Shown: piece by piece, positions 4,796 through 46,896 of the stretch | Position numbering within the stretch: the first letter of the stretch is position 1 | Layout of the letters: the number at the start of each line of letters is the position of its first letter | Assembly: GCF_003946345.1 (NCBI RefSeq) | Contig: NZ_RHNY01000016.1 | Location: forward strand, 1 to 64,000 | DNA length: 64,000 nt | DNA from: Levilactobacillus tongjiangensis | Lineage (GTDB): Bacteria; Bacillota; Bacilli; Lactobacillales; Lactobacillaceae | Direction of reading: 5' to 3' | Made by a program: the position numbers and the translations under genes | The notes under the pieces: model-generated | Told to the model about the DNA's origin: nothing | What the model saw: only the letters and a program-made list of their open reading frames with translations | Databases searched by the model: none

Positions 4796-5352
4796 AAATG
4801 ATTACTCGGATTGGGTGTTGGGGTTTTGTCAAATATAGCGGGAAATTGTCGCCTTACCGTTCGCCAAATTTGGACTGGAACGCGGTGGAAAGGACGGGAC
4901 AAGCCAAAAAGCGGTCTTGCCCCTCGCTTGAAGCCGAAAAACACGTCTTCAAGTCGCCATTTTCAAGAAGAGCACTTGAAAATTCCACGGCTGAGTCCAA
5001 ATTTGACTCACTCTCGGCTACCTAGTGGCGCATCAATAATACTGAGTAAGTTTTGTCATTCAGGCATCTAAGTTGGCCTATTCTCCAAGCACCCGTTTAA
5101 CCGGAGGCGGTCAGAGGTGAAGCCAGCTGTGGCTACGGTGTTAGCCGATTTTCGGCTTACAGCGTGGGACGTGTTTGGAGACTGGTGGTTTTCCTAGGCT
5201 TCAAACCGAGCCGAAGGACCGCTTTTCAGGCCGGAGGCGTTCCCCACAGCAGGCGGAATCTCTGACCGCCACAGGTGGCTGGTAAGACTAATTTTAAGTC
5301 GATAACGCTTTACTATTCTTGGTTTGATAACAGTTTTCGAACTTTCAACCTT
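4796..5352. repeat. Structured intergenic repeat, locus A: back-to-back double module
   Basis: About 555 bases without a credible gene, between convergent obg and the lipoprotein gene. The minus-strand module is closed by AAATTTGGACT (4866-4876) and AGTCCAAATTT (4994-5004). The plus-strand module is closed by GGCGGTCAGAG (5106-5116) and CTCTGACCGCC (5260-5270), with a TTAGCCGA/TCGGCTTA hairpin and a GTTTGGAG/CTTCAAAC hairpin inside. The whole stretch is repeated, inverted, at 45962-46505. The right end from about 5270 to 5352 is also present at locus B. Short open frames inside it have no coding support. Confidence 0.85.
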
Positions 5353-5365
5353 TAGACTTAGGCAC

Positions 5366-10974: not shown

Positions 10975-11200
10975 CAAAGGGTTGAAAGTTCGAAAAACGT
11001 TATTAATCCAAGAATAGTAAGGCGGTACAGGCTTAAAATTAGTCTCACCCAGCACCTGTGGCTGTCAAAGATTCCGCCTGCTGTGGGGAACGCCTACAGC
11101 CTGAAAAGCGGTCCTTCGGTTCGGTTTGAAGCCTGGAAAAACCACCAGTCTTCAAACGCGGCCCAGGTGTAAGCTGAAAATCGGCTAACTTTTCGGGGAG
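10975..11200 (-). repeat. Structured intergenic repeat, locus B: 5'-truncated module
   Basis: On the minus strand this matches the right two-thirds of the plus-strand module of locus A: the TTAGCCGA/TCAGCTTA hairpin, the GTTTGAAG/CTTCAAAC hairpin, the block AGGACCGCTTTTCAGG, CGTTCCCCACAGCAGGCGG and the tail running to TTCGAACTTTCAAC. The left closing arm is missing. Homology stops within about 15 bases of the stop codon of the MFS gene, suggesting that the copy was cut by a rearrangement there. Confidence 0.8.
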
Positions 11201-11207
11201 TGAAAAG

Positions 11208-12398
11208 TTATTCAGCGATCATGCCATGATGTTGAATTAGGTTTCCCGTGAGACTCAGGAGGGCTGCAAATAGTGCTAAGAGGCCGATAACGGGCGACCA
11301 GTTTCCTAATAGGCTCTGGAGATAGCCGAAGAGCAGCGGCCCGACTGCGGCTAGTAGATAGCCTGCAGACTGGGCCATCCCGGAGACGGCCGCCGTTTGG
11401 ATGGGATTAGTCGTTTTCTCCGTGAAGAAAAGCACGGCTAAATTGAAAGCGACCCCGGCACCAACGCCAATAGTCAGGGAACAAAGCGCTAGCCAGCTGA
11501 GGGCGTGGAGTGGCAGAAGAAAGCCCAGCGGTGCGATAACGTATCCCAGAGTCATGAGAGCAATCAACCAGCGGACACCGTGGCGCTTATTGAAGAGAAA
11601 GGGAACCAAGAATGAGAGTGGCAGACCGCTGATTTGCAGAACGGTGAGGAGGTTGCTGGCCGTTAAAGCAGGGATGCCGTGCGCACTGAGCATACCGGGT
11701 AGCCAAGTGACAAAGGAGTAGTAAACCAGTGCTTGGAGTCCAAAGAATAGGGTAATCAGCCAGCCTAGTGGTTGATGCCAGACGCTTTGATAGTGGGGCT
11801 GAGGTTGATTATGCTTAGTCGTCGTTGTCGTTGTCGTTGTCGTGACGGGTCGACGGAGGTTGGGAATCCAGGCGAGTGCGGCCACGATACTTAAGACGGA
11901 TAACCAACCTAACGTGGCCCGAAGGCTAATTTGGCCTATTAGAAAACCGGCTGCGGCGGTGCCTAAAGCACCAATTAGCAGCATTGCAAGGGTGTAGAGC
12001 CCGGTTCCCACATTGACGCGATCGGGCATGTTTTCTTTGATTAAGGCGGGAATCAGGACGTTGCCACTGTCGGCACCGATACCGATTAAAAAGGTCCCAA
12101 AGAAAACGGCTGCCACGGTGGGAATCAACCGAAGGTAGCTACCGATGATCAGCAGAAGAAACAGGCTGAAGACGGTCAAGGAATTCCCCCATCGTTGTGC
12201 TAATTTCACAATAATGGGCGAGAAGACGGCGAAGGTGACCAACGGAATCGAAGTCAGTAGGCCACCCATGGCACTGGGCAGCGCCAACGCGTGCTCAATC
12301 TTGGGTAGGAGCGGTGGAATGATGGTGATGGGGAGTCGTAAATTGGCTGCTATCAGCATCATGCTGACTAGGAACCAGGGTTGTTTGGAACGCGACAA
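11208..12398 (-). CDS. MFS transporter, CynX/NimT (cyanate/nitroimidazole) type
   Basis: Inner-membrane carrier of 396 residues with about twelve hydrophobic helices. The N-terminal pattern (LIAANLRLPITIIPPLLPKI, then ALPSAMGGLLTSIP) is that of the CynX/NimT branch of the major facilitator superfamily. The substrate is unknown. The cytosolic linker between the two halves holds nine consecutive Thr encoded by an ACG/ACA hexanucleotide repeat (11818-11846), which could vary in length. It begins at ATG 12398 after GGAGGGATTC. No normal terminator follows; repeat locus B lies directly downstream. Confidence 0.85.
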   Translation of the reverse strand: MSRSKQPWFLVSMMLIAANLRLPITIIPPLLPKIEHALALPSAMGGLLTSIPLVTFAVFSPIIVKLAQRWGNSLTVFSLFLLLIIGSYLRLIPTVAAVFFGTFLIGIGADSGNVLIPALIKENMPDRVNVGTGLYTLAMLLIGALGTAAAGFLIGQISLRATLGWLSVLSIVAALAWIPNLRRPVTTTTTTTTTKHNQPQPHYQSVWHQPLGWLITLFFGLQALVYYSFVTWLPGMLSAHGIPALTASNLLTVLQISGLPLSFLVPFLFNKRHGVRWLIALMTLGYVIAPLGFLLPLHALSWLALCSLTIGVGAGVAFNLAVLFFTEKTTNPIQTAAVSGMAQSAGYLLAAVGPLLFGYLQSLLGNWSPVIGLLALFAALLSLTGNLIQHHGMIAE

Positions 12399-45961: not shown

Positions 45962-46505
45962 AGGCCAAGAATAATAAGGCGTTATAGGCTTAAAATTAGT
46001 TTCACCCAGCCACCTGCGGCTGTCAGAGATTCCGCCTGCTGTGGGGAACGCCTCCGGCCTGAAAAGCGGTCCTCCGGCTCGGTTTGAAGCCTGGAAAAAT
46101 CACCAGTCTCCAAACGCGTCCCACGCTGTAAGCCAAAAATCGGCTAACACCGTCGACACAGCAAGCTCCACCTCTGACTTTCTCCGGGTAAACAGGTTCT
46201 TGGAAACTAAGCTAGCTTAAATGCCTGGACAACAGTACTTACGCAATATTACTGGCGCTCAACAAGGTAGCCGAGGGTGAGTCAAATTTGGACTAATCCG
46301 TGGAATTTTTAAGTGACTTTCTTGAAAATGGTGACCTGAAGACGTGTTTTGCGGATTCACGCGAGGGGCAAGACCGTCTGATGTTGGCTTGTCTCGGCCT
46401 TCCCATCGCGTTCCAGTCCAAATTTGGTGAACGGCAAGGTGGCAATTTTCCACTATGTATGACGAAACCCCAATATCCAATCCTTGTTGCATCAGGCACA
46501 GCGGG
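45962..46505. repeat. Structured intergenic repeat, locus C: back-to-back double module, inverted copy of locus A
   Basis: The reverse complement of this block aligns with locus A (4796-5352) along its length. The minus-strand module (about 45970-46180) has the same TTAGCCGA hairpin, GTTTGGAG/CTTCAAAC hairpin and CGTTCCCCAC block. Its outer arm, CTGTCAGAG (46020-46028) with CTCTGAC (46172-46178), is shorter than in A. The plus-strand module is closed by AAATTTGGACT (46284-46294) and AGTCCAAATTT (46415-46425). Open frames that cross it are not conserved between copies. Confidence 0.85.
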
Positions 46506-46624: not shown

Positions 46625-46812
46625 ACGTAGCCGCAGGAGGCCAGGGATGACGGCCACTGTGTCGACGGTGTTAGCTGGTGGGTTTCCAGGTTACAGCGTG
46701 GGACGGTCTTGGAGCCCCGGCGATTTTCCGGGGCTTCAAGCCGAGGGGAAAGACCGCACTATGGCTTTCCCTGGTCCCCACAGTGGTCGTCATTCCTGGC
46801 AGCCGGAGGCGG
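46625..46812 (+). repeat. Structured intergenic repeat, locus E: single module with near-perfect arms
   Basis: Closing arm 46640-46661 (starts GCCAGGGATGACGG) pairs with 46779-46800 (ends CGTCATTCCTGGC), 20 of 22. Inside, CTTGGAGCCCCGG (46708-46720) pairs with CCGGGGCTTCAAG (46728-46740), and GGGAAAG (46746-46752) pairs with CTTTCCC (46765-46771). GTGGGAC and GTCCCCAC close the inner part. It lies 120 bases after locus C in the same intergenic region. Confidence 0.85.
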
Positions 46813-46859: not shown

Positions 46860-46896
46860 TGTAAACGCTTACAAAACCGGCAATTCGTGATATACT
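46860..46896 (+). promoter_or_regulatory. cre site overlapping a promoter
   Basis: TGTAAACGCTTACA (46860-46873) fits the CcpA operator consensus TGWAANCGNTNWCA at every position. TATACT (46891-46896) is a good -10, and the -35 position at 17-base spacing (CTTACA, 46868-46873) lies within the operator. CcpA binding would block polymerase, so the downstream gene is probably catabolite-repressed. Confidence 0.8.

Follow-up and report, generated by a model that had tools for sequence, protein, structure and literature searches.

A folded repeat family of Lactobacillaceae, selected on a single strand and paired head to head

Introduction

What kind of element is the structured intergenic sequence at positions 46625-46812 of the window, the 64,000-nucleotide stretch of Levilactobacillus tongjiangensis DNA analyzed here? 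A sequence-only reading had described the same parts in the same order at several loci, with arms that differ between loci while still pairing, and had proposed that structure is selected, either in an RNA or in a hairpin of mobile DNA. We find that the folded repeat is real, strongly selected, spread over the Lactobacillaceae and, with respect to Rfam 15 and the open literature, new as a family. A heavily used bacterial family thus carries a large folded repeat family without a name in either source, one that makes it testable how a one-strand fold drives the spread of a non-coding element. Its copies often lie in pairs, and these are head to head, a rule that is a sharp clue to the mechanism of spread.

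Results

Copies of one module in the window

The sequence at 46625-46812, module E, is one member of a family of folded repeats, elements of ~130-200 nt with a common branched fold. We built two covariance models: R1 (type I) from 31 copies, comprising 28 of the 30 best BLAST loci plus modules A, C, and D, and R2 (type II, shorter) from 30 copies from several genera. The window holds the following features:

46625-46812, plus strand: module E, type I, complete; R1 188 bits, fold z -8.4
46010-46193, minus strand: module C, type I, facing C' and E head to head; R1 139.9 bits; at the same place in two relatives
46265-46442, plus strand: module C', degenerate partner of C across a 71-bp spacer; R1 28.2 bits
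45955-46483, minus strand: MITE-family unit that contains C and C'; homolog of 4808-5355 with each TIR either degraded or gone
5095-5278, plus strand: module A, type I; R1 154.5 bits
4849-5023, minus strand: module A', head-to-head partner of A across a 71-bp spacer; R1 67.5 bits
4808-5355, plus strand: MITE-family unit that contains A' and A; lacks its left end and keeps the right TIR (5342-5355)
11052-11224, minus strand: module B, cut short within P2, with module sequence reaching ~11189; R1 46.9 bits
31588-31772, plus strand: module D, type I; R1 137.5 bits
52650-52684, minus strand: arm remnant, counterpart complete in relative G010 (L214:11194-11380, minus strand)

As had been claimed, the parts stand in the same order at A, D, and E, and also in the minus-strand copy at 46010-46193, which we take to be the locus C of that reading. 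The arms are indeed specific to their locus: the closing arms of every copy are complementary to their own partner. The literal strings differ between copies; D carries ATGGGCG where the others have GTGGGAC, and the 3' end of module A is GCGTTCCCCAC. Module C' is missing from relative G010, in which module D is deleted between its arms. Module B, which has a TIR-like end at 10975-10988, is found in the window only; neither of the relatives G010 and G061 has it.

Selection acts on the fold

The type I consensus (RNAalifold) has 67 pairs, with a closing stem that carries a 3x3 GNA/GGA loop near its foot and, in its interior, a GTG/CAC neck, hairpin P2, a GGGAC/GTCCC closing set, and hairpins P3 (of the type CTTGGAG/CTTCAAG) and P4 (of the type GGAGAAAGACCG/GGCTTTCTCC). 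Type II retains the closing stem, P2, and one more hairpin; the junction inside the closing stem holds two elements in type II and three in type I. Folded as RNA, module E reaches -116.2 kcal/mol (z = -8.4 against 200 dinucleotide shuffles), and its opposite strand is also a strong folder (z = -7.0).

Covariation, a check set beforehand, was strong relative to shuffled and slid controls in structure-blind and fitted alignments alike. When the 31 type I copies are aligned by MAFFT without regard to structure, 94.4% of 2062 cells pair, compared to 79.9% in shuffled and 35-46% in slid controls (the consensus structures derive from the same sequences as those tested, and the shuffles ignore kinship, which the slid control retains). 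Double changes occur at 48 of the 67 pairs, the covariation score is 0.449 compared to 0.175 shuffled and 0.07-0.09 slid, and none of 500 shuffles attains any of five measures. For type II, aligned across genera in the same structure-blind way, 40 of 43 pairs show double changes and the score is 0.708, against 0.198 shuffled. Model-fitted sets concur: 93.6% of cells are paired in one set of 126 distinct copies and 94.8% in a second set of 58 distinct copies. These results show that the fold is under selection.

No Rfam 15 family lies over the module at the gathering threshold. Scanning the window returned only a tRNA, the region of module E gave chance-level hits, and at ten module-bearing loci nothing fell over the module. 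Together, the covariation and the lack of an Rfam match uphold the proposal that selection acts on structure, whether of a mobile-DNA hairpin or of an RNA. The statement that no named family fits also stands, for Rfam 15 and for searches of the open literature.

The selected form is one strand

Cells with G-U outnumber those with A-C 2-5-fold across alignments. The structure-blind alignments give G-U:A-C ratios of 110:21 (A1) and 75:26 (A5), or 71:21 and 51:26 in columns where a Watson-Crick pair is commonest; the fitted alignments give 377:85 (246:77 in Watson-Crick-major columns) and 129:33 (90:31). All of these counts include related copies, so that binomial significance is only rough. Two G.U positions in P3 are conserved. 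Whereas a double-stranded cruciform predicts equality, G-U exceeds A-C, and the selected form is therefore the single-stranded sense strand alone; RNA and ssDNA are equally compatible with this result.

Copy number and distribution

The family is far larger than the handful of copies first noted. At the DNA level, module E finds 43 matches in its own genome, counting itself, with identities of 70-100%. By NusA, the named records closest to this 2.72-Mb genome are L. mulengensis, L. wangkuiensis, L. angrenensis, and L. brevis. Searching the genome with R1, we found at least 150 copies: the best 150 of 1077 candidates were scored, all with E <= 7.1e-28, and because every one of them matched, 150 is a lower bound. 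At ~190 nt each, they make up at least ~1% of the genome. Some lactobacilli genomes carry well over a hundred copies, and copy number varies widely among related genomes.

R1 matches 23 of 24 genomes of the genus, own genome included (G022 has none), one of 16 other genomes of the order (E = 5.6e-4), and 10 of 11 named genomes, the exception being Lentilactobacillus fungorum. At E <= 1e-5, R2 matches 17 of 40 named genomes: Levilactobacillus brevis; Secundilactobacillus angelensis and hailunensis; Lactiplantibacillus nangangensis; Pediococcus ethanolidurans; Lacticaseibacillus brantae, daqingensis, chiayiensis, manihotivorans, and camelliae; Schleiferilactobacillus perolens; Companilactobacillus mishanensis, zhongbaensis, musae, tucceti, and formosensis; and Loigolactobacillus backii, with one match. 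Outside the Lactobacillaceae, R2 matched none of nine named genomes. An even sample of the Lactobacillaceae, searched at E <= 1e-8 with stricter filters, gave matches in 28 of 121 genomes and 10 of 40 genera.

Neighboring modules face head to head

We counted orientations in the window plus 20 own-genome stretches picked for holding copies (457,469 bases, 125 modules). Neighbors less than 700 bp apart are 37 (-+), 0 (+-), 9 (--), and 3 (++); the two (+-) neighbors in this sample lie 700-1000 bp apart. The best 150 own-genome copies, counted for neighbors within 500 bp, give 19 (-+), 0 (+-), and 4 (--). Among the matches listed for four other genomes there are 36 (-+) and 0 (+-) neighbors: 27 and 0 in L. 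nangangensis, with one (--), 6 and 0 in P. ethanolidurans, 2 and 0 in C. musae, and 1 and 0 in S. perolens. The head-to-head rule holds in every genome counted.

Pair order is unchanged between tandem or divergent genes, and gene orientation is therefore no explanation for the rule. Comparing 26 own-genome spacers of 100-500 bp, we found homology in only two spacer pairs, at MITE-bearing loci. Subfamilies mix freely within own-genome pairs, which contradicts strictly heterotypic pairing. At the polC-rimP site, other species of the genus have head-to-head modules of their own, different in sequence (L181:3874-4787, L185:3874-4705). A tandem run of modules on the same strand lies at L258:15134-16131, part of it a 327-bp direct repeat with 98% identity and a spacing of 111-112 bp.

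Modules lie between genes, often facing stop codons

Of the 125 modules, 124 lie outside called ORFs, a count favored by the procedure, in which ORFs of >=110 aa came from a greedy caller and those overlapped by modules over more than a quarter were dropped as spurious. Convergent intergenic regions make up 28 of the 70 regions with modules compared to 17 of the 121 without (p = 8e-5), and divergent ones 5 of 70 compared to 41 of 121. Of 115 modules, 84 point their 3' end at a stop codon, 32 of them from <=35 bp away. Downstream of 95 modules, an A-run, which we take to be the terminator T-run of the gene opposite, occurs in 17 and a T-run in 5. There is no excess of promoter-like sites in the 100 bp upstream of modules, and with this negative scan we rejected the idea of independent ncRNA genes.

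MITE units carry some of the pairs

The pairs A'/A and C/C' are copies of a MITE with the 14-bp TIR CTAAAGGTTGAAAG and a 71-bp spacer between modules; B is also assigned to this TIR-bounded family. An intact own-genome copy (L248:3374-3969) has both TIRs and the exact 8-bp TSD TTTATCGC. In P. ethanolidurans, units of ~512 bp bounded by the same TIR show exact 8-bp TSDs at L230 and L225 (TTTTAAAT and TTATTTAA), and a unit of another Levilactobacillus, at L184, again has this TIR, with the 8-bp TSD ATAGGCAT. Allowing at most one mismatch, the TIR occurs 73 times in the own genome, 33 times in G061, and 76 times in P. ethanolidurans, compared to once in each for the reversed control. At the other own-genome pairs, with spacers of 136-499 bp, an outer TIR is not above background.

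We also looked for an autonomous element. No IS-sized TIR pair appeared among the matches listed for the own genome, G061, and P. ethanolidurans, and (-)(+) pairs 1-5 kb apart in the own genome, judged by position, pointed to no transposase; several had nearer partners. The possibility, raised at the outset, that the modules are an IS-derived inverted repeat thus touches A'/A, B, and C/C', which belong to the TIR-bounded MITE; the module, however, is distinct from the TIR, the matches listed included no IS bounded by it, and other copies are TIR-less. In G061, a ~198-bp unit (L210:12658-12855) has the same TIRs and no module match, which shows that some MITE-family members are module-free.

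Single modules move, and copies decay

Six S. perolens copies have ~180 bp in common and unrelated flanks, and the likeness between Levilactobacillus type II twins stops at the module ends. Such near-identical single modules with unrelated flanks indicate that single modules move too, and we dropped the pair as the invariable moving unit on these grounds. No TSD is visible by eye at the single S. perolens and Levilactobacillus modules, and no clean empty site with a TSD was found for single modules.

At polC-rimP, modules C and E stand at the same place in two relatives, with 93% identity. Where relatives differ, it is mostly by deletions, with arms or halves left behind; this was also the outcome relative to G061, where clean insertion of type I modules was considered and rejected. 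The G061 counterpart of L241:2865 has its module replaced by one with other arms, with a near-twin at another place. The type II pair at L246:15275-15621 has the opposite orientation at the same place in G061, with joints in approximately the outer 14 bp (CGCCCGGTAAGGCG). The in-place inversion and the replaced module point to exchange between copies.

In 20 orthologous comparisons, site divergence is 0.066 at paired sites, 0.094 at unpaired sites, and 0.085 in flanks. Single-side changes kept the pair in 49 cases and broke it in 28, with 20 more broken on the own-genome side; double changes kept it in 23 and broke it in 5. Since the loci richest in double changes include the exchanged copies (L241:2865, L246), this in-situ comparison is weak evidence, and we set aside in-situ compensatory change, the richest cases being the replaced module and the inverted unit. 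Constraint after insertion thus appears to be at most weak.

Candidate movers and carriers

Y1_Tnp matches in 6 of 13 genomes, and 6 of 11 carriers lack it, L. nangangensis and S. perolens among them; UPF0236 (ISLre2) matches in 4 of 29 genomes and 3 of 20 carriers. Missing from many carriers, RAYT (Y1) and ISLre2 were both rejected as general movers. On two plasmids, a copy of the ISLre2-like ISLca4 has a sense module ~18 nt past the transposase stop, within a block common to both. Because UPF0236 occurs in only 3 of 20 carriers and six other UPF0236 loci have no module, the ISLca4-borne module looks like a passenger.

Modules were found in four plasmid records in all, via Pediococcus and S. 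perolens queries; module E and the own-genome MITE, used as queries, gave no plasmid match. On two L. paracasei plasmids the module points its 3' end toward the stop codon of a gene for sugar use. The flanks of plasmid modules are IS3 and ISLsa1 copies, and there was no empty site among the matches listed. Two queries of phage records returned no module, and two patterns run on viral contigs gave 4 pattern hits, none convincing (best 15.7 bits).

Discussion

The reading we favor, with confidence that is evenly balanced, is that the family consists of non-autonomous mobile elements of Lactobacillaceae that spread via their single-stranded fold. The folded strand, as ssDNA or an RNA copy, would be recognized by a trans-acting enzyme at copying or insertion; enrichment between convergent genes would reflect tolerance; inserted copies would then decay, often via deletion between arms; and some pairs would be carried inside a MITE with the 14-bp TIR and 8-bp TSD. 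Consistent with this are the covariation, the excess of G-U over A-C, the copy number, near-identical copies with unrelated flanks, the TIR with its TSDs, the module in a plasmid IS, the intergenic and convergent enrichment without promoter excess, the decay by deletion, and the weak constraint after insertion. Against it, no mobility enzyme was found in our searches, the Y1 and ISLre2 enzymes being missing from many carriers; the TIR-less pairs with 136-499-bp spacers have mostly unrelated spacers, unlike recent whole-unit copies; single modules have no clean empty site; and plasmid copies are rare (4 records), with none in phages. This reading also offers no account of the constant head-to-head pairing.

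A possible, if less probable, explanation is a structured RNA in many copies whose function goes beyond moving itself. A sense transcript, which would start in the spacer and run outward or would arise by read-through, would bind a protein or affect neighboring transcripts. The strand bias and the two conserved G.U positions in P3 fit such an RNA, as do the lower divergence of paired sites (0.066) than of unpaired sites (0.094) and flanks (0.085), the retention of C and E at one place with 93% identity, and the 3' ends pointing toward stop codons (84 of 115); the lack of promoter excess in the 100 bp upstream, the uneven copy number among relatives, with none by R1 in G022, and the weak in-situ constraint speak against it.

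We consider with considerable doubt an RNA-centred mobile class, a bacterial counterpart of SINEs, in which a partner-bound sense RNA or ssDNA is copied to new sites without target duplication, preferably head to head; MITEs and IS would then be its occasional carriers.

It is improbable that the modules act in cis as a 3' end or insulator of adjacent genes, whether as terminator, mRNA stabilizer, or read-through block. Convergent regions are over-represented and, of the 84 modules that face a stop, 32 do so from no more than 35 bp away, as such a role would have it, but the module is antisense in the neighboring mRNA, where the G-U excess turns into an A-C excess; the A-run read as the facing gene's terminator intervenes in 17 of 95 cases; and pair order is also kept between tandem and divergent genes.

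Far less probable still is a giant REP/BIME moved by a RAYT (Y1) transposase. GTAG is a motif of REPs, and REPs are several times smaller than our modules. The module 5' foot is often GTAG, a strand-specific foot as in REPs, and the intergenic palindromes in inverted pairs (37 -+ and 0 +- within 700 bp) and the lack of a visible TSD at single modules are likewise shared; in contrast, the module fold is far larger and branched, and the absence of Y1_Tnp from 6 of 11 carriers largely refutes RAYT as a general mover. Hardly credible at all is a symmetric double-stranded DNA cruciform, such as a protein-binding or chromosome-organizing site, because its strands would be equivalent and yet G-U:A-C is 71:21 and 51:26 on one strand, even though both strands fold well.

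Other known systems share some features with the family. L. johnsonii was among the genomes of a published stem-loop survey, whose passage on this contains neither the word plantarum nor the word lactis (PMC2267715); passages of a review on MITEs describe transcripts with stable stem-loops and name no lactobacilli (PMC10969869). Like MITEs, the modules are small, non-coding, and intergenic, and the A-type and P. ethanolidurans units have TIRs and 8-bp TSDs; unlike them, many modules and pairs are TIR-less, single modules have no visible TSD, and the family keeps one internal fold over at least 10 genera together with the head-to-head rule. ERIC, BOX, EFAR, and bcr1 are also folded intergenic repeats of ~100-200 bp in many copies, but they have other hosts and are not known to share the junction fold, the two length types, or the head-to-head rule. 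HEARO/omega RNAs, which belong to IS605-type elements, are structured RNAs of similar size with scattered copies without an adjoining gene and no TSD, but our Rfam scans gave no HEARO match over modules. In the ISLre2-family ISLca4, the homologous block on the two plasmids includes a sense module just past the transposase stop, whereas the six other UPF0236 loci are module-free.

Some modules have distinctive neighbors. In P. ethanolidurans (L177:1501-2712) a module lies directly ahead of a tRNA gene cluster, and in two related genomes (L005:1334-1687, L060:1334-1688) a module lies ~60 nt from a TPP riboswitch. Just 3' of module E in the window, ahead of the next gene, is the cre-like sequence TGTAAACGCTTACA (46860-46873), which we take from the consensus to resemble a CcpA cre site.
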